A stretch of DNA of 64,000 nt from Streptomyces deccanensis (GTDB taxonomy: Bacteria > Actinomycetota > Actinomycetes > Streptomycetales > Streptomycetaceae), in assembly GCF_022385335.1 (NCBI RefSeq), contig NZ_CP092431.1, forward strand, positions 5,022,001 through 5,086,000, read 5' to 3'. Positions 22,800 through 31,038 of the stretch are shown one piece after another (positions within the stretch are counted from its first letter, which is position 1; each line of letters begins with the position of its first letter). A program made the position numbers and the translations under genes. The notes beneath the pieces are model-generated. The model ran no database searches. It was not told where the DNA came from and was given only the letters and a program-made list of their open reading frames with translations.

Positions 22800-22997
22800 A
22801 TGAACGCATCCCTCGACCCCACGGCCGAAGAGTCGGGCACCACGGCCGCCGTCGGTCCGGAGCGGGTGTCCTTGGTGCAGTTGGCGGCCCGGAGCGGCGG
22901 CGCGCTGTCGCCCGCCCTGACCCGTGCCGTGTCGAACGGCACCGACCGCAGGGGCCCGGCGAGGGTCGCGGTGGCGGCCTTCCAGTCCTCCGTCTGA
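22800..22997 (+). CDS. fxsA: FxSxx-COOH precursor peptide FxsA
   Basis: The 65-aa product ends in FQSSV, an exact F-x-S-x-x-COOH terminus, which defines this precursor family. The preceding ~55 residues act as a leader (VSLVQLAARSGGALSPALTR) and have no cysteines. In the family, the radical SAM partner crosslinks the Phe ring to the side-chain carbon of the residue two positions later, giving a three-residue cyclophane; here that would be F61 and S63. The gene follows GAGGT spaced for ATG 22800 and is 43 bp upstream of the maturase gene. The identification rests on the terminus and the complete fxs context. Confidence 0.88.
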   Translation: MNASLDPTAEESGTTAAVGPERVSLVQLAARSGGALSPALTRAVSNGTDRRGPARVAVAAFQSSV

Positions 22998-23040
22998 CAC
23001 CGCCGGCCCCCACCACCCCCGCCGAGACCACCGACATCAC

Positions 23041-25530
23041 ATGACCGTCGAGACCGTCGAGACCGTCATGGGCCGACCGCTCCTGCCGTTGCGTCAGTTC
23101 GTGCTGAAGATGCACAGTCGCTGCGATCTCGCGTGCGACCACTGCTATGTGTACGAGCACGCCGACCAGAGCTGGAGCCGTCGGCCCGTGGTGGTGTCGG
23201 ACGAGGTCCTGCGCCGCACGGCGGAACGCATCGCCGAACACGCCGGGGCGCACGGACTGACCACCGTCCACGTCGTCCTGCACGGCGGCGAACCCCTCCT
23301 CGCGGGCCGGGCCCGGTTGCGCAGGGCCGCGAGGGAGCTGACGACCGCCCTGAGCGGCGTGTGCGAGCTGGACCTGCGGATCCACACCAACGCCGTCACG
23401 CTCGACGAACGGTTCCTGGACCTGTTCGACGAGTTCGACATCAAGGTCGGTGTCTCGCTGGACGGCGACCGCGCGGCGAACGACCTGCACCGCCGCTACG
23501 CCGACGGGCGCAGCAGCCACGACCGCGTCCTCAGAGGCATCGCCCTGCTCAACCGGCCCCGCCACCGCCATCTCTTCGCGGGCATCCTCTGCACGATCGA
23601 CCTCCGCAACGACCCGGTCGCCGTCCATGACGCGCTCGCCGCGCTCGCCCCGCCCCGCGTCGACTTCCTCCTCCCGCACGCCACCTGGGACGAGCCCCCC
23701 GCGCGCCCCGCCGAGGACACCGCAGGCACGGCGTACGCGCGCTGGCTGCTGGCCGTCCACGACCGTTGGACCGCGACCGGTCGCTCCATGGACGTCCGGG
23801 TGTTCGACTCGGTGCTGCGGACCCTGCGCGGCGAGAGCAGCCTGACCGAGTCGCTGGGGCTGGCGCCCACCGATCTCGCCGTGATCGAGACCGACGGGAC
23901 CTTCGAACAGGCGGACTCCCTCAAGACCGCGCACGACGGGGCGCCCGCCACCGGACTGGACGTGTTCGGCAACTCCCTGGACGAGGTCGCCGCGCATCCG
24001 GGCATCGTGGCCCGGCAGCAGGGCCTGGACGGGCTGGCCGAGCAGTGCCGGGCCTGCCCGGTGGTGCGCTCGTGCGGCGGCGGCCTCTACGCCCACCGGT
24101 ACCGCTCCGACGGCAGCGGCTTCCGCAATCCGTCCGTGTACTGCTCCGATCTGCTGTCCCTCATCACCGACCTCCGGGACCGTCATATGACCGACCAGTC
24201 CGCGCGGCCGGCGCTCGCCGACCACCATCTGGCCGAACTGGCCACCGGACGCGGCACGGGCGCCACCGTCGACCTGCTGGCCCGCCACCAACTCGCCCTC
24301 TCCCGCGAGCTGCTGGGCCTCGTCCGGCACGAGACGACGCTCGCGGCGGAGAAGGAGGCCGACGAGGAGGCGTGGGACACCCAGGCGGCGTGGGACACGC
24401 TGACCGCCCTCGACAGCGAGGCCCCGGAAGCCGTGGACCGCGTCCTGGCCCACCCCTATGTACGGTCCTGGGCGCTGAGTTCCCTCGGGGCCCGTCCGGC
24501 TCCGGGACCGAGCGGAGGCGTCGCGGAAGCCGCCGCGATCGCGGCACGTGGGATCGCGGCACGCGGGATGGCGGAGATCGCCGCCGCGGCGGCGCTGCGG
24601 GCCGGGCGCCGGGCATCGGTGGTCGTCCCGGTGCACGACGGGCTGTTGCGGCTGCCCACGCTCGGGACCCTGACGGTGGAGGCGGAGACCGGGCGAGCCC
24701 TGGTCCGCACGGACATCGACGGCTGCACCGTCCACGTGGACGACCGGACGTACGCGATCGACCGGTCGTACGCGATCGGCCGAGGCGGCCCCGGGGATCC
24801 CGCCTGGCGGGGCACCCGGCCGTTCGAACTGGACGGCTGGTCCGTGGCCCTGGAGGACACCGACCCCTGGCGGGACTGCCACGGACATCCCGCGCACCCC
24901 CGGCTCGCGGAGGTCGAGGCCGAGGCGTGGCGGGCCGACCTGACCGAGGCCTGGGCCTGGATCCGCCGCGAACTGCCCGCGTACGCGCCGGGGATCGCCG
25001 CCGGGCTCCGGGTGATCACCCCGCTCAGGCCGTCCCCCGAGGGTGCCGACATCAGCTCCGCCGCCCGCGACGCCTTCGGCGCGGTGGCCATCGCCCGCCC
25101 GTCCACGCCGGAGACCCTGGCGCTGCTCCTCGTCCACGAGTTCCAGCACGTGAAGCTGGGGGCCGTACTGGATCTCGTCGACCTGCACGACCCTGCCTGC
25201 GAGACGTTGTTCTACGCGCCCTGGCGTCCCGACCCGCGCCCGCTGGAGGGGTTGTTGCAGGGGACGTACGCGCATCTCGCGGTGGTCGACTTCTGGCGCG
25301 CCCGCTGGCGCGGCGGGGGCGGGCGGGAGGCCGAGGTGCGGTTCTCCCGGTGGCGGGACCAGACGGCGGAGGCGGTGGGGACGCTCGCGGGCTCGGGGGC
25401 GCTGACGGAGGCCGGGCAGCGGTTCGTCGCCGGGCTCGGGGAGGCGCTGGCGGCGGACGAGGTGAGCGCGGAGGCCCTGCGGGCGGCCCGGCAGGAGGCG
25501 GAGGAGCACCGGCGGGCCATGCGGCCGTAG
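23041..25530 (+). CDS. fxsB: FxsB radical SAM/SPASM peptide maturase fused to an HExxH domain
   Basis: The 829-aa protein starts as a radical SAM enzyme: CxxxCxxC at C28, C32 and C35 (RCDLACDHCY), HGGEPLLAG and later SLDGDRAANDLHRRY. A SPASM-type cysteine region (CRACPVVRSCGGG...YCSDL) ends the ~390-residue maturase. The C-terminal half is an HExxH domain with HEFQH at 699-703, like the peptide hydroxylase-type domain of other FxsB proteins. It should bind the FxsA leader and modify its C-terminus. ATG 23041 is used; ATG 23068 is a possible alternative, and neither has a strong ribosome-binding site, so translation may depend on fxsA. Confidence 0.92.
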   Translation: MTVETVETVMGRPLLPLRQFVLKMHSRCDLACDHCYVYEHADQSWSRRPVVVSDEVLRRTAERIAEHAGAHGLTTVHVVLHGGEPLLAGRARLRRAARELTTALSGVCELDLRIHTNAVTLDERFLDLFDEFDIKVGVSLDGDRAANDLHRRYADGRSSHDRVLRGIALLNRPRHRHLFAGILCTIDLRNDPVAVHDALAALAPPRVDFLLPHATWDEPPARPAEDTAGTAYARWLLAVHDRWTATGRSMDVRVFDSVLRTLRGESSLTESLGLAPTDLAVIETDGTFEQADSLKTAHDGAPATGLDVFGNSLDEVAAHPGIVARQQGLDGLAEQCRACPVVRSCGGGLYAHRYRSDGSGFRNPSVYCSDLLSLITDLRDRHMTDQSARPALADHHLAELATGRGTGATVDLLARHQLALSRELLGLVRHETTLAAEKEADEEAWDTQAAWDTLTALDSEAPEAVDRVLAHPYVRSWALSSLGARPAPGPSGGVAEAAAIAARGIAARGMAEIAAAAALRAGRRASVVVPVHDGLLRLPTLGTLTVEAETGRALVRTDIDGCTVHVDDRTYAIDRSYAIGRGGPGDPAWRGTRPFELDGWSVALEDTDPWRDCHGHPAHPRLAEVEAEAWRADLTEAWAWIRRELPAYAPGIAAGLRVITPLRPSPEGADISSAARDAFGAVAIARPSTPETLALLLVHEFQHVKLGAVLDLVDLHDPACETLFYAPWRPDPRPLEGLLQGTYAHLAVVDFWRARWRGGGGREAEVRFSRWRDQTAEAVGTLAGSGALTEAGQRFVAGLGEALAADEVSAEALRAARQEAEEHRRAMRP

Positions 25531-25702
25531 GGGAGCAGGGTGGAAGCGGATGGGGAGCGCGGGGCCCCTTTGCTTCCGCTTACTTGTTCGAGAGCCGCGT
25601 GCCGGTGGGCCGATGCCGGGACATTGGGCCCGTTCGTCATATTCCACGTGCCCCTGCCCCCTTCCTACACTGAGGAAAGTCACCGGGCATCGGGGGGCAT
25701 GG

Positions 25703-26953
25703 GTGCGAGGAGATGCGGCCAGGGGCGGCGGAAGCCCTTATTTCTTCCTCAGTTACGCGCACACGCCGCGAAACGACGCCGGTGACACCGATCCGAACAT
25801 CTGGGTGAGAAAGCTCTACGACGGGCTGTGCGCGCACATCATGCAGATGACCGATCTGCCGCGCGGCGCACGGGCCGGTTTCCTGGACCAGGGCATGGCG
25901 GTCGGCACCCGGTGGACGGACGAGCTGTCGGAGAACCTCGCGCGCTGCAAGGTGTTCGTCCCCCTGTACTCACCGCGCTACTTCATCAGCGAGCAGTGCG
26001 GGCGGGAGTGGTGGGCGTTCAGCCAGCGGCAGATCAGCCACCGGGCCCGCGGCGGCGTCACCCGCGAGCACGCGATCATCCCCGCGTTATGGGTGCCCGT
26101 GGAACCCGCCCAATTACCGCACGCGGCCAAGGACCTGCAGTTCAACCATGTGTCCTTCGGCCAGGACTACGCGGAGGAGGGGTTCTACGGGCTCACCAAA
26201 CTCCGGTACCTCAGGGACGAGTACGAGCGGGCCCTGTACCGGCTGGCCAAGCAGATCGTGCACGTCGCCAAGGTCACCGAGCTGGACGAGGGGCAGACGT
26301 ACGACGACTACGAGTCGCTGCCCAGCGCGTTCGGCACGTCGGGCCACCCCCCGGAGTTCGACATCACGGTCATGGCGTGCACCCGCTCCGACCTGCCGCC
26401 CGGCCGTGAGCCCGACTGCTACGGGCAACTGCCGCGCGACTGGAACCCGTACCACCCGGCATCGACGCGCCCCCTCGGCGAACACGCGGCGGATCTGGTG
26501 CGCACCATGGACTACAAGGTCAACATCGGGGACTTCGAGAAGGACGCCGACCGGCTGCTCGGCCCCGGCCCGCCCCGCGCCCCCGGGCTGCTTCTGCTCG
26601 ACCGGTGGGCCCTCGCCTCCGCGCGCGGCCGGGAGCTGATGGACCGGCTGTGCGAGGAGCAGCGGCCGTGGATCAGCGTGATGATCCCCCGGTGCGACGA
26701 CGACGCCGGGCCCGCGCGGGAGAAGAGGCTGACGGCGCTCACCGAGAAGGCCCTGGCCGCGCGGACCACGGAGGGCAGCGGCCACCGGACCCTCAACGGC
26801 GGCATCCGCACCCTGGACGCCTTCGGCAACGAACTGCAGACGGCCGTGAAGCAGGCCGTCGCCTCCTACGAGGCACACGCACGGACCTATCCACCGGCGG
26901 GACCCCTCGTCGCACCCCCGCGGCTGCGGGGCCCGGACGACCTGGGCGGCTGA
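25703..26953 (+). CDS. fxsC: TIR-like protein FxsC
   Basis: The ~416-aa protein has a TIR-like domain at the start: PYFFLSYAHT (first strand), KVFVPLYSPRYFISEQCG and CGREWWAF, where the Glu lies at the position of the catalytic Glu of TIR NADases. A linker (YDDYESLPSAFG) leads to a second Rossmann-like half (FDITVMACTRSDLP, LLLLDRWAL) whose function I do not know. The family name FxsC is taken from the FxSxx-COOH systems. Start is uncertain: GTG 25703, following GGGGGG, gives a short leader before the TIR strand; the frame is open upstream to 25550. It lies 172 bp after fxsB and 89 bp before fxsT. Confidence 0.85.
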   Translation: MRGDAARGGGSPYFFLSYAHTPRNDAGDTDPNIWVRKLYDGLCAHIMQMTDLPRGARAGFLDQGMAVGTRWTDELSENLARCKVFVPLYSPRYFISEQCGREWWAFSQRQISHRARGGVTREHAIIPALWVPVEPAQLPHAAKDLQFNHVSFGQDYAEEGFYGLTKLRYLRDEYERALYRLAKQIVHVAKVTELDEGQTYDDYESLPSAFGTSGHPPEFDITVMACTRSDLPPGREPDCYGQLPRDWNPYHPASTRPLGEHAADLVRTMDYKVNIGDFEKDADRLLGPGPPRAPGLLLLDRWALASARGRELMDRLCEEQRPWISVMIPRCDDDAGPAREKRLTALTEKALAARTTEGSGHRTLNGGIRTLDAFGNELQTAVKQAVASYEAHARTYPPAGPLVAPPRLRGPDDLGG

Positions 26954-27042
26954 AACCCGGTGTCACCGGGGCGTGCGGAAGGACGTGCGGGAGTCGGGAG
27001 TACGGCAACAGCGGGTCGGACAGGGCGGAGGACGGCAGGCGC

Positions 27043-30000
27043 ATGACGGAGAACCGCAACGGCACGGTCATCACGTTCTACTCGTACAAGGGCGGCACCG
27101 GCCGGACCATGACGCTCGCGAACGTGGCGTGGATTCTGGCCGCGGGCGGACACCGCGTCCTGGCCGTCGACTGGGACCTGGAGGCACCCGGTCTGCACAA
27201 GTTCTTCCACCCCTTTCTCAACCCGGCGATGCTCCGGGCCACCCCCGGCCTGAGCAACCTCATCGGCGACTACCGCCGGGAGGCGCTGCGCGACCTGCCC
27301 GACCGCGCCCCCGACTGGCACCGCAGGTACGCCCGTGTACGCCCGCACGCGCTGACCCTCGACTGGACGTTCCCCGAGGGCGGCAGCCTGGACTTCCTCT
27401 CCGCCGGGCGCCGGCACGACGACTACCCGGTGATCGGCAACATGGACTGGGAGCTCTTCTACGCCAGTTACGGCGGCGGCCGGTTCTTCGAGGCGATGCG
27501 CGCGGACATGCGGCGCCACTACGACTACACCCTGATCGACAGCCGTACCGGCCTCAGCGACCTCGCCGACGTCTGCACCGTGCAGATGCCCAACACCCTC
27601 GTCGTCTGCTACACCCTCAGCGGCCAGAGCATCGAAGGCGCCGCCGCCGTCGCGCAGAGCATCCGGGAGCGGTTCGGCCACAAGGGCATCCGCATCCTGC
27701 CCCTCGCCATGCGCATCGACCTCGGCGAGAAGGACAAGCTCGACGCGGGGCGCGCCCTGGCCCGGGAGCGCTTCGCCGGACTGCCCGCCGGCCTGGATGG
27801 CGACCGGCTGACCGACTACTGGTCGTCGATGGAGGTCCTCTACCAGCCGTACTACGCCTACGAGGAGATCCTGGCGGCCTTCGGCGACCCGCCGAAGACG
27901 GCCAACTCCATGCTGAGCGCCTGCGAACGGGTCACCTCCGTCATCACCGAGGGCCGGGTCACCCGGCTCCCCCTCATCGGCGAGGAGAAGCGGGCCCGGT
28001 ACAAGGCCGCGTACACCCGCCGACGGCCGCTGCCCGTCTCCCGGCTGGTGCTGTACTACGTCTCCGAGGACCGCATGTGGGTCGACTGGCTGGAGTCGGT
28101 ACTCCGGAACGCCGGCTTCGACGTGGCGCCGATGGACGTCCGGGCGCTGCCGCAGGACGCCGGGGGACTGCCGGGCGACGACGACCGGACGGCGTCCGGC
28201 GCCGAGGACGCGGCCGACGGCTCGGAGCGACTGCTCGCCGTGGTCTCCCCCGCCTTCCTCGACTCCCGGCGGGCGCGCCGGGCCTGGGAGGACGCCGTGC
28301 ACGCCGACGGGCGCAAGCCGGGGAACCGGCCGGTGGCAGTCCGCGTCGACGACGTCCGGCTCAGCCTGCCGCACTCCTCCCGGGGCGCCATCGACCTCAC
28401 CCGGCTCGACGAGGAACGGGCCCACCGGACCCTGCTGACGAGCCTCGACCACCCGGACGTCCTGTCCGCGCCGCCGGACGGCGGCGCCCGCTTCCCCAAC
28501 ACCGGCACCCGGATCTCCAACGTCCAGCCCCGCTACCCGTGGTTCACCGGCCGCTCACCGATCCTGGACCGGCTGCGCGAGCGCCTGGTCAGCGGCCGCT
28601 CCGGGCAGCGGCTGCCGCAGGTGCTGCACGGTCTGGGCGGGGTCGGCAAGTCCCAGCTGGCCCGTGAGTACGCCCACCGGTTCAAGGCGGACTACGACCT
28701 GGTGTGGTGGATCGACGCCGAGCAGCCGGACCTCGTCCTGCCCAAGGTGGCCGCCCTCGCGCAGGAGTTGGACCTGCCCGTCGGCGACGACGTCTCCGAG
28801 GCGGCCGAGGCGGCGATGAGAGCGCTCCGCCAGGGCGACCCGTGCGCCCGCTGGCTGCTGATCTTCGACAACGTCCCGGACCTGAACCGGGCGTTGCCGC
28901 TCTTCCCGGGCCAGGCGGCCCCGGTACGGGACCACGTGTACGGCCACATCCTGGTCACCACCCGCGATCGGCCCGGCTCGACGCTGGTCCAGTCGCTGGA
29001 GATGGAGGTCTTCACCCGCGAGGAAAGCGTGGAGCACCTGTGCCGCCGGGTGCCCGGACTGCGGGAGAACGACGCCGACCGGGTCGCCGACGCGCTGGGC
29101 GACCTGCCGCTCGCCGTGGAGGTCGCGGCGGCCTGGCTGGAGGCGACGGCCACACCGGTGGAGGAGTACATCGACCAGCTGCGGGAGCAGTCCACCCGGG
29201 TGCTGTCGGTGCAGGAGGCGGTGAACGCGGTCGAGTACCCGTCCTCCGTGGGCGCCACCTGGAACATCTCCATCACCCGGCTGCGCGAGGAGTCCCCGGC
29301 CGCGGCCCGGCTGCTCGAACTGTGCGCCTTCTTCTCGGCCGAGCCCATCTCCATGACCCTGATCAGCAGTGACGCGATGATCGACGCCCTGCTGCCGTAC
29401 GACCGTGACCTGCGCGCCCGCTACATGCTCGGCCGCGTCACCCAGGCCCTGAACCGCTTCGCCCTCGCCAAGGTCGACTCCGCCGACAACTCCATCCAGG
29501 TGCACCGGCTGGTGCAGGCGGCGGTGCGGGACAGCCTGGACCCCCAGCGGTACGTGGAGACCATCCACGAGGTGCACCGCATCCTCGCCGCCGCCCGGCC
29601 GCGCGAGGGCGCCGTGGACGATCCCGCGCAGTGGCTCGGGTTCGAGGTGATCTGGCCACATCTGATGCCCTCGAACATCCGCGAGTGCGCGGAGGAGGAG
29701 CCCCGTCAGCTGATGGTGGACCGCGTCCGCTACCTGGGGAAACGCGGCGAACTGCAGGCGGCCCGCGACCTGGCCACCGACCTCGACGAGCTGTGGACCA
29801 ACGAGATCCTCGACGCGGACGACGAGCAGGTCCTCAACCTCCGCTTCCAGCTGGCCAACGTGATGCGCTCCCAGGGCGACTACCAGGCCGCGCGGGCGAT
29901 GGACGAGCGGACCCTGGACGGCCAGCGCCGGCTGCTCGGCGAGGACCATCCGAACATCCTGATGACCTCGGGCAGCCTGGCCGCCGACCTCCGCGCGCTG

Positions 30001-31038
30001 GGCCGCTACAAGGAGGCGCTCGACCTGGACCTGCGCATCCACCTGGGCTTCAAGGAGATCTTCGGCGACGACCATCCCCGTACGCTCTCGGCGGCCAACA
30101 ACCTGGCCATCGACCTGCGGCTGGCCGGCGACAGCGAAGCCGCCCGCCGGCTCACCGAGGACACGGTCCGCCGCCGCACCGCGCTGCTCGGTCCGACCCA
30201 TCCCTACACGCTCGCCACCAAGGGGCACCACGCGCGCGACCTGCGCGACCTGGGGGATTACCGGACCTCCGCCGAGCTGCTGCGCGAGGTCCGCGAAGGC
30301 TTCGAACAGGTGTTCAATCCGGGGGTGCCCGAGGTGTTGCAGGCCGACAAGAGCCTCGCGGTCTCCCTGCGCAAGGCGGGCCGTACCGCCGAGGCGCTGC
30401 GGATCACCGAGGAGACCTGGAAGACGTACGCCCGCTACCACGACCGCTACGGCAGCACCATCCCCGAGATCCTGGCCTGCGGGCTCAACCTGGCCGCGGA
30501 CTACTACGCCACGGATCCCGAGGACGGCCCGGCGCGGGCGGTCCACCAGGTCGAGGAGGTGCTGGACGGGTACCAGGACTCGTTCGGCATCGAGCACCCG
30601 TTCACCATGTACTGCTACAACAACCTCGCCATGTACCACCGGGCCCTCGGCGACATCGAGAAGGCGGAGGAGCTGAGCCGTCACGCCCGCGACTGCCTGG
30701 CCGCCACGCTCGGCGACGACCACCCGGCCGTGCTCTCCGCCGGCCTCAACCTGGCCAACGCCTACGGGGACCGGGGCCTGTACGACCACGCCGAGCGCTC
30801 GGAGCGCCAGGCCGTGGAGGGGCTGCGGCGACGGTTCGGCGCCGACCACCCCGATGTGCTGGTCGGCATGGGCAATCTGGCGATCACCCTGCGGGACACG
30901 GGGCGGGACGAAGCCGTACGGCTCCAGGAGAAGGCGGCGACCCGGCTGGCCCAACTCCTGGGCCGGAGCCACCCGGTGACCACGCTGGTACGCGGCTGGC
31001 AGCGGGTGGGGAGGGATTTGGAGCCGCATCAGATCTGA
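27043..31038 (+). CDS. fxsT: FxsT: ParA-like / TIR-like / NB-ARC / TPR multidomain protein
   Basis: The 1331-aa protein combines four modules. Residues ~1-310 are ParA/MinD-like, with a deviant P-loop KGGTGRT (16-22; the usual second Lys is Arg), VDWDLEAPG and LIDSRTGLSD. Residues ~330-450 are TIR-like (RLVLYYVSEDRMWVDWLESV, then LLAVVSPAFLDS). Residues ~505-880 are an NB-ARC/STAND ATPase with GLGGVGKS (~529-536), WLLIFDNV and LGDLPLAVEVAA. Residues ~890-1320 are TPR units with recurring G-x-x-HP motifs. It is the usual large partner in FxSxx-COOH systems and has the layout of an immune-type signalling sensor. Start ATG 27043 follows GGCGGAGG. Domain calls are firm; the role is not known. Confidence 0.92.
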   Translation: MTENRNGTVITFYSYKGGTGRTMTLANVAWILAAGGHRVLAVDWDLEAPGLHKFFHPFLNPAMLRATPGLSNLIGDYRREALRDLPDRAPDWHRRYARVRPHALTLDWTFPEGGSLDFLSAGRRHDDYPVIGNMDWELFYASYGGGRFFEAMRADMRRHYDYTLIDSRTGLSDLADVCTVQMPNTLVVCYTLSGQSIEGAAAVAQSIRERFGHKGIRILPLAMRIDLGEKDKLDAGRALARERFAGLPAGLDGDRLTDYWSSMEVLYQPYYAYEEILAAFGDPPKTANSMLSACERVTSVITEGRVTRLPLIGEEKRARYKAAYTRRRPLPVSRLVLYYVSEDRMWVDWLESVLRNAGFDVAPMDVRALPQDAGGLPGDDDRTASGAEDAADGSERLLAVVSPAFLDSRRARRAWEDAVHADGRKPGNRPVAVRVDDVRLSLPHSSRGAIDLTRLDEERAHRTLLTSLDHPDVLSAPPDGGARFPNTGTRISNVQPRYPWFTGRSPILDRLRERLVSGRSGQRLPQVLHGLGGVGKSQLAREYAHRFKADYDLVWWIDAEQPDLVLPKVAALAQELDLPVGDDVSEAAEAAMRALRQGDPCARWLLIFDNVPDLNRALPLFPGQAAPVRDHVYGHILVTTRDRPGSTLVQSLEMEVFTREESVEHLCRRVPGLRENDADRVADALGDLPLAVEVAAAWLEATATPVEEYIDQLREQSTRVLSVQEAVNAVEYPSSVGATWNISITRLREESPAAARLLELCAFFSAEPISMTLISSDAMIDALLPYDRDLRARYMLGRVTQALNRFALAKVDSADNSIQVHRLVQAAVRDSLDPQRYVETIHEVHRILAAARPREGAVDDPAQWLGFEVIWPHLMPSNIRECAEEEPRQLMVDRVRYLGKRGELQAARDLATDLDELWTNEILDADDEQVLNLRFQLANVMRSQGDYQAARAMDERTLDGQRRLLGEDHPNILMTSGSLAADLRALGRYKEALDLDLRIHLGFKEIFGDDHPRTLSAANNLAIDLRLAGDSEAARRLTEDTVRRRTALLGPTHPYTLATKGHHARDLRDLGDYRTSAELLREVREGFEQVFNPGVPEVLQADKSLAVSLRKAGRTAEALRITEETWKTYARYHDRYGSTIPEILACGLNLAADYYATDPEDGPARAVHQVEEVLDGYQDSFGIEHPFTMYCYNNLAMYHRALGDIEKAEELSRHARDCLAATLGDDHPAVLSAGLNLANAYGDRGLYDHAERSERQAVEGLRRRFGADHPDVLVGMGNLAITLRDTGRDEAVRLQEKAATRLAQLLGRSHPVTTLVRGWQRVGRDLEPHQI

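Follow-up and report, generated by a model that had tools for sequence, protein, structure and literature searches.

fxsABCT of Streptomyces deccanensis, a possible intracellular conflict system linking a modified peptide to TIR and STAND proteins

FxSxx-COOH systems are recognized by the families TIGR04268, TIGR04269, NF040588/TIGR04276 and NF040586. The closest described arrangements are those of Kaur et al. 2020 (eLife, PMC7159879), in which FxSxx peptides are encoded with a radical SAM/SPASM gene and an AP-ATPase that carries TIR and TPR modules. The sections of that work cited here also describe actinobacterial versions that stand alone and in which the AP-ATPase bears a MinD/ParA-like domain that is inactive, and propose that a metallopeptidase frees the peptide as a toxin or signal. 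Here we analyse fxsABCT, a complete unit of this kind at positions 22800-31038 of a 64,000-nucleotide stretch of Streptomyces deccanensis DNA (contig NZ_CP092431.1, positions 5,022,001 to 5,086,000), hereafter called the window. The unit is already known as a member of a named family: it matches all four families and shares with the standalone systems the FxSxx peptide, the radical SAM/SPASM enzyme and the AP-ATPase with TPRs and an extra ParA/MinD-like domain, which is the architecture of the window FxsT. A preliminary description, made from the sequence alone, had called the link between peptide, TIR and STAND proteins unexplained; as stated this does not hold, because the sections cited already addressed it (PMC7159879). 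With respect to those sections, the window differs in that its HExxH domain is fused to FxsB and is read here as a hydroxylase, not as a peptidase.

We propose, with a probability of roughly 40%, that fxsABCT serves intracellular conflict as a self-limiting alarm: modified FxsA would act on FxsT, and FxsT would in turn unleash FxsC. This reading is built on gene content, order, conservation, motif integrity and neighbouring genes. An FxsC profile scan with one genome per species gave 392 relatives, and the best 80 were kept with flanks of up to 10 kb (loci are designated by L and a number). FxsB was recognized in 71 of these 80 loci, FxsT in 75 and all three proteins in 68. The order B-C-T on one strand is found in all 68 complete loci, and in 65 of them an open reading frame (ORF) ending in FxSxx lies directly before fxsB; the baseline is 77 of 14,000 ORFs of 40-150 amino acids in all 85 loci, fxsA genes included. 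The three exceptions are L022 and L031, which begin at a contig edge, and L044, whose precursor ends in AAFQSFSSK. The 12 incomplete loci are mostly cut at contig ends; no FxsB was recognized at L038, L068, L078 and L088 despite at least 9 kb of upstream sequence. The four genes named in the preliminary description do, by this survey, occur together.

A second sample comprised 61 genomes of the window's genus, Streptomyces, with a linkage distance of 14 kb. FxsC was found in 26 of them (24 above the family cut-off), and at 26 of 33 FxsC loci both FxsB and FxsT lie within that distance. Out of 63 FxsB copies, 49 are accompanied by FxsT and 29 by FxsC, while 22 have FxsT but no FxsC; the maturase FxsB is therefore tied more closely to FxsT than to FxsC. 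Reciprocally, 50 of 110 FxsT matches have FxsB. FxsA and FxsB resemble triceptide precursors and maturases, which have elsewhere been met in natural-product clusters (PMC11002830), and the unit might be regarded as an ordinary cluster for a ribosomally synthesized and post-translationally modified peptide, its TIR and STAND neighbours being incidental. The invariant gene order and the frequent pairing of FxsB with FxsT make it hardly credible that this is so. In all seven examined FxsB-FxsT loci without FxsC, FxsT has no ParA-like match, and five of the seven have a separate HExxH ORF. As a side observation, 12 FxsB copies have no FxsC or FxsT start within 14 kb, and six of them (L103, L105, L107, L109, L111 and L112) lie near a weakly STAND-like ORF (42-68 bits), a hint of wider peptide-STAND pairs.

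Every one of the four Fxs proteins of the window scores above its own NCBIfam cut-off, and all the genes lie in the same direction (Table 1). A chance origin of the unit is excluded by these family scores and by the conservation across loci. A complete locus of four co-directional genes, with a precursor ending in FQSSV, had been announced from the sequence and is confirmed by the scores; the domain list given with it was right as far as it went and had missed the alpha-ketoglutarate (alphaKG)-HExxH domain of FxsB. The start codons of fxsB and fxsT are probably ATG 23041 and ATG 27043, so that the genes need not overlap; that of fxsC is uncertain (25550, 25613 or 25703). The window occupies 5.02-5.09 Mb of a 10.1-Mb single-contig genome.

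Table 1. Features of the fxsABCT unit, in window coordinates
Feature	Coordinates	Strand	Evidence
fxsA, precursor, 65 amino acids, ends FQSSV	22800..22997	+	TIGR04268 37.7 bits (cut-off 28); core and leader like those of related loci
fxsB, radical SAM/SPASM maturase fused to alphaKG-HExxH domain	23041..25530 (ORF from 22924)	+	TIGR04269 600.8 (cut-off 370); TIGR04267 188.8 (cut-off 40)
FxsB radical SAM/SPASM part	23089..24177	+	TIGR04269, residues 56-418
FxsB alphaKG-HExxH domain (FxsB ORF residues 674-838)	24943..25437	+	intact HEFQH at 25135-25149
fxsC, TIR domain plus FxsC C-terminal domain	25550..26953	+	NF040588 240.4 (cut-off 130); TIGR04276 227.2 (cut-off 55)
Codon of FxsC Glu153, putative TIR catalytic Glu (CGREW)	26006..26008	+	E in 85/86 aligned FxsC rows
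fxsT, ParA/MinD-like (KGGTGRT), TIR-like, NB-ARC STAND ATPase and TPR	27043..31038 (ORF from 26605)	+	NF040586 994.2 (cut-off 300); NF047398 126.5 (cut-off 90)
FxsT TIR-like domain (TIR_2), no Glu at site aligned to FxsC Glu153	28057..28434	+	domain match, alignment
FxsT NB-ARC (STAND) domain, P-loop GLGGVGKS intact	28564..29223	+	domain match, alignment
FxsT TPR array, candidate peptide-binding part (inferred)	29836..31035	+	PF13374/PF13424

The preliminary description was also right that there are two TIR modules, and these differ at a putative catalytic site. The TIR domain of FxsC bears a glutamate, Glu153, which sits in a TIR motif and is putatively equated with the catalytic position by motif and fold. 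The aligned site of FxsT, an alanine in the window, is L, V, A, I, F or S in 77 of 81 rows. Fold alignments of FxsC and of FxsT used 27 of the 28 picked rows each, the FxsC set leaving aside a TIR-only gene of L004 and the FxsT set one L068 row with coordinates on the other strand. The TIR of FxsT also evolves faster than that of FxsC. The two modules are probably non-equivalent.

The FxsA of the window has the leader motif RVSLVQL and the C-terminal core AAFQSSV. A leader motif resembling R[VI]PLxxL was read by eye in FxsA of loci with and without an intact HExxH motif, and is joined to the core, which is far better conserved, by a variable linker. Phe and Ser are present in 71 of 71 FxsA sequences, a circular figure, since FxSxx was the search rule; outside these 71, the precursor of L044, that of L005 (FASALL) and the second one of L011 (FESSI plus seven residues) break the exact C-terminal rule. 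The triceptide maturase MscB is reported to bond C4 of a Phe to the beta carbon of the Ser two positions further on (i to i+2; PMC11002830), a geometry that fits the FQS of FxsA; by this analogy a Phe-Ser cyclophane is expected within FQS. Fused radical SAM and alphaKG-HExxH enzymes have been described in ChlB/ChlH (Nature Chemistry 2024, as cited in PMC12636437; PDB 9gm3 and 8s5f), and HExxH relatives fused to radical SAM domains are said there to be alphaKG hydroxylases, contrary to their peptidase annotation. The cyclophane and hydroxylation chemistry assigned to FxsB is carried over from such published relatives. ChlB/ChlH and the proteins of PDB 22nu/22ob would combine the same two activities as the window FxsB, to judge from likeness in sequence. 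FxsB matches the radical SAM domain of ChlB (9gm3) with E 1.3e-75 in a sequence search, its residues 418-859 match the HExxH extension of 22nu with E 3.9e-91 and a conserved HEFQH, and the match to ChlH (8s5f) is weak (E 0.00076). By its InterPro number, MscB presumably belongs to the FxsB family. The model for FxsBH inactivated beta-hydroxylases, NF040587, gives 178.1 bits for the window, under its cut-off of 225, and the HExxH motif is intact.

The two catalytic parts of FxsB have had different histories. The CxxxCxxC motif is present in 74 of 77 aligned FxsB rows (the remainder are gapped, one with L and A) and four C-terminal cysteines in 77 of 77. Among 76 typed loci, own-genome loci included and some on truncated contigs, 32 have an intact HExxH motif, 41 have lost it and 3 contain none; L086, whose FxsB is divided between two frames, was assigned to class none. 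On a midpoint-rooted tree of the 77 rows, we read the changes as about four separate losses (L040, L034, L023 and one large clade), with the radical SAM part retained. Because the cysteine motifs are kept while HExxH is repeatedly lost, crosslinking looks essential and hydroxylation optional. The core also varies with the HExxH class: Ala precedes Phe in 28 of 28 FxsA where HExxH is intact versus 2 of 41 where it is lost, and Gln occupies the ring position in 26 of 28 versus 4 of 41 (two more FxsA belong to the untyped class). Nevertheless, this covariation was dropped as a pointer to the hydroxylated residue, given only about four losses on the tree, and is suggestive only. Two of the losses, that of L023 and that of the large clade, coincide with a change of Ala; for Gln there is one such case, within the large clade, at whose base L060 retains Gln.

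The same data bear on a different account, in which FxsA is cleaved and secreted, as a signal to warn neighbouring cells or a toxin to kill them, the HExxH domain being the releasing peptidase. This was proposed by Kaur et al. 2020 (PMC7159879); moreover, the related HExxH enzyme PflC also cuts the backbone, and the Ala preceding Phe in every FxsA with intact HExxH recalls PosC, which cleaves before Ala (PMC12636437). We set the peptidase assignment aside since radical-SAM-fused relatives are described as alphaKG hydroxylases (PMC12636437), keeping it as a rival because PflC is partly proteolytic. Secretion nevertheless appears unlikely. Since about four losses of HExxH have left the remainder in place, release by this domain would be non-essential; there is no exporter within the unit, and only 2 of the 16 clusters scanned among the 28 largest neighbour clusters are transporter-like: an ABC-2 protein about 3 kb away (15 loci) and an EamA protein about 1 kb upstream on the other strand (11 loci).

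Neighbouring genes were counted at the 68 complete loci among the 80 (38 with HExxH lost, 29 intact, 1 untyped), for ORFs of at least 70 amino acids and without own-genome loci. A gene with SLATT_3 plus SLATT_1, mostly divergent upstream of fxsA, accompanies 39 of them (35 lost, 3 intact, 1 untyped), and a SLOG-like gene 35 (33 lost, 1 intact, 1 untyped). The SLOG-like label is based on motifs and on matches far below cut-off to SLOG, DprA and deoxyribosyltransferase families; a PDB search with one member gave no match. In 19 of the 61 congeneric genomes a SLATT_3 gene exceeds the cut-off, a single gene per genome, one of them split in two; 16 of these 19 genes lie within 6 kb of fxsC, usually together with a SLOG-like gene, and 16 of 26 complete fxs loci have one. 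Since this is a separate sample, the SLATT link is not an artefact of the FxsC-seeded choice of loci. Many SLATT loci are syntenic, which reduces the number of independent events. On the FxsB tree SLATT is found in the large HExxH-lost clade together with L010 and, outside it, at L097, L051 and L044; a further case, L119, was left off the tree and has an unfused FxsB and a precursor ending in FDSAL. Thoeris combines a TIR signal maker with a SLOG-type sensor effector. One fxs branch is similar to it in bringing together a TIR protein, a SLOG-like protein and a membrane effector; unlike Thoeris, the window locus has no SLOG-like or SLATT gene nearby, and nothing in Thoeris corresponds to the STAND protein or the modified peptide of fxs. 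Neither the proposed division of labour between the TIRs nor the SLATT/SLOG-like branch is described in the sections of Kaur et al. 2020 cited here (PMC7159879).

FxsC was also found in fusions. Plasmid NZ_CP108204 encodes a 1524-amino acid protein that unites both halves of FxsC with an N-terminus of the SAV_2336 type and a TPR array that matches FxsT (381.5 bits, cut-off 300); its gene adjoins a VMAP-M2 gene and an AAA ATPase. On a Kitasatospora plasmid, a SAV_2336-FxsC fusion lies beside a gene annotated as a MoxR family ATPase. The coordinates of the fusions, on Streptomyces and Kitasatospora plasmids, are L098:5635-10209 and L099:6178-10191, and Pfam recognized no vWA domain in either. 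This company recalls the VMAP-MoxR-vWA ternary systems (PMC7159879), and the fusions would place FxsC in the effector-like position of such a system and link it to TPRs of the FxsT type; unlike these systems, the 12 window neighbour ORFs scanned (15297-39300) include no MoxR, vWA or VMAP. An alternative is that FxsA itself is a toxic effector, held or released by FxsT and FxsC. Kaur et al. 2020 (PMC7159879) allow a peptide toxin or signal, and the conservation of the core relative to the linker would suit a toxin (leaving aside the Phe and Ser fixed by the search rule). It is very unlikely to be correct, since FxsC has an effector signature of its own and occurs in a SAV_2336-type fusion with no FxsA or FxsB annotated nearby, and SLATT provides a membrane effector in one branch.

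According to the conflict-system reading, FxsB would form a three-residue cyclophane by crosslinking FxsA at its C-terminal FQS, and the HExxH domain of FxsB would add a hydroxylation. The modified peptide, as an activating ligand or a guarded self-peptide, would act on FxsT, most likely on the TPR array, setting the threshold of the STAND ATPase. Activated FxsT may then recruit FxsC through its Glu-less TIR-like domain, and FxsC, as the Glu-bearing TIR, would consume NAD+ or make a nucleotide signal. In related loci this signal may be read by the SLOG-like protein together with the SLATT two-helix membrane effector; the window locus, without them, would act via NAD+ loss or through an unlinked effector. 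FxsA-FxsT binding, TIR-TIR recruitment, NAD+ chemistry and the biological trigger are steps that we infer. A more specific version, which we consider decidedly unlikely, makes FxsA an internal sentinel. Its modification costs S-adenosylmethionine (SAM), an iron-sulphur cluster, alphaKG and oxygen, so that the cyclophane and the hydroxylation would certify metabolic integrity, with the free FxSxx carboxyl lying in the FxsT TPRs. An invader that upset the supply or state of FxsA would lead FxsT to assemble, and its non-catalytic TIR would recruit the catalytic TIR of FxsC; the nucleotide signal would open SLATT pores via the SLOG-like sensor, where present. If this were true, FxsT would be, to our knowledge, the first STAND receptor in immunity to be controlled by a ribosomal peptide natural product.

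Several observations weigh against the proposed role of fxsABCT. SLATT and SLOG-like genes are rare in the window's own class (3 and 1 of 29 complete loci), and positions 12001-42000 of the window have no profile match to either. No FxsA or FxsB is annotated within 9 kb on either side of the FxsC fusions, in an incomplete gene table, and FxsT matches outnumber FxsB (110 versus 63, at different thresholds); therefore neither FxsC nor FxsT always needs the peptide. In six of the seven examined FxsB-FxsT loci without FxsC no ORF of at least 40 amino acids ends in FxSxx, and only L120 has one upstream of fxsB. Their maturases probably act on other precursors, which makes the FxsB-FxsT linkage only indirect evidence about FxsA. 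The FxsC structure model has a predicted template modelling score (pTM) of 0.53; Foldseek with this model gave a single PDB match at E <=0.001, a plant TIR-NLR, PDB sequence searches with FxsC gave no match, and Glu153 is identified with the known catalytic Glu by motif and fold, not by residue-level structural alignment. Finally, the window locus is mid-chromosomal, and its flanks, like those of the HExxH-lost class, are common to related species, unlike typical mobile defence islands.

This last point could equally favour a developmental or stress-signalling module of Streptomyces, in which the peptide reports SAM, iron-sulphur clusters, alphaKG and oxygen, all needed for its maturation, to FxsT. 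The distribution agrees with it: in a sample of 296 genomes across the phylum FxsC turned up in 4, of which three belong to the window's genus (three above cut-off, the window's own included). In a list that may omit the genome's own record, the window FxsC has its best match in Streptomyces caniscabiei (98% identical in the best segment), followed by S. stelliscabiei and S. scabiei; the FxsB tree agrees with this ranking. Such a module is somewhat unlikely, given that TIR, SLATT, SLOG-like, VMAP and STAND proteins are company of the conflict-system type and that the unit is patchy in the genus (FxsC in 26 of 61 genomes, as above) with five divergent copies in the window genome. The conflict-system reading is the most economical: a Glu-bearing TIR and a STAND protein stand together in the unit, SLATT and SLOG-like genes join them in one branch, and on plasmids FxsC is fused to a SAV_2336-type protein beside AAA/MoxR-like and VMAP genes. 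An anti-phage function is plausible by association. A PADLOC scan of seven proteins (FxsB, FxsC, FxsT and four neighbours) gave a weak viperin match for FxsB (28.4 bits, general radical SAM region) and, for FxsT, a match to the candidate defence protein PDC-M28B (68 bits, over 50 ParA-like residues) and a TPR model (21 bits), with nothing for FxsC or the four neighbours. No relative of FxsC was found in phage records or, by a scan reaching close relatives only, in viral contigs. The peptide-linked signalling or immune system suggested in the preliminary description thus stands as far as co-occurrence and conflict-system company are concerned, and is refined in three respects: the two TIR modules are probably of unequal kind, FxsB carries a second oxidative enzyme, and linkage makes FxsT, rather than FxsC, the likelier partner of the maturase.

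A 2025 paper states that the bioactivities of triceptides have not been elucidated (PMC12257519). Their enzymology has advanced, and fxsABCT, in which such a peptide comes with a receptor of immune type and a TIR protein, could reveal the purpose of one class of modified peptides; if the proposal were true, an oxidatively modified self-peptide would be added to the known triggers of STAND/TIR immunity. The open-licence literature yielded no experiments that put FxsC, FxsT or the function of the peptide to the test, and our literature search no account of the Glu contrast between the FxsC and FxsT TIRs, the SLATT branch, the approximately four HExxH losses, the more frequent association of FxsB with FxsT than with FxsC, or the five loci of this genome.

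The window genome has five places where B, C and T stand together; 21 of the other 60 congeners have one such locus and none has more, and fragmented assemblies may hide some. These loci differ from one another. The window and L004 have a fused, intact HExxH domain, L005 a separate HExxH ORF and L010 a degenerate HExxH, while L011 has two FxsB genes and two precursors (L011:6634-6891 and L011:14089-14292), one extended seven residues past FESSI. FxsC of L004 has Gln in place of Glu, and an adjoining TIR-only gene of FxsC type has the Glu.

The window flanks contain HATPase, CitG, dioxygenase-like and other ordinary genes, and a promoter/terminator scan gave no signal above chance. Elsewhere, an alpha/beta hydrolase gene, mostly convergent just downstream of fxsT, is found at 61 of 68 complete loci of both classes (for instance L058:15254-16165) and at the own-genome loci L004 and L010; it was not listed as a part of the system, being absent at the window and its nearest relatives L018-L022. 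A gene with the aminoglycoside 3-N-acetyltransferase (AAC(3)) fold lies inside or beside fxs at L010:7301-8083 and at L051, L055, L056, L058, L070, L076, L079 (PF02522) and L119; AAC(3)-like genes were counted at 13 of 68 loci by strict gene calling and at 21 of 85 by profile, and perhaps encode a further peptide-modifying acyltransferase rather than drug resistance. Genes for secreted alpha-lytic-type proteases stand on one or both sides of the fxs neighbourhood at 37 of 68 complete loci, in the HExxH-lost class, for instance at L084:16699-17784.

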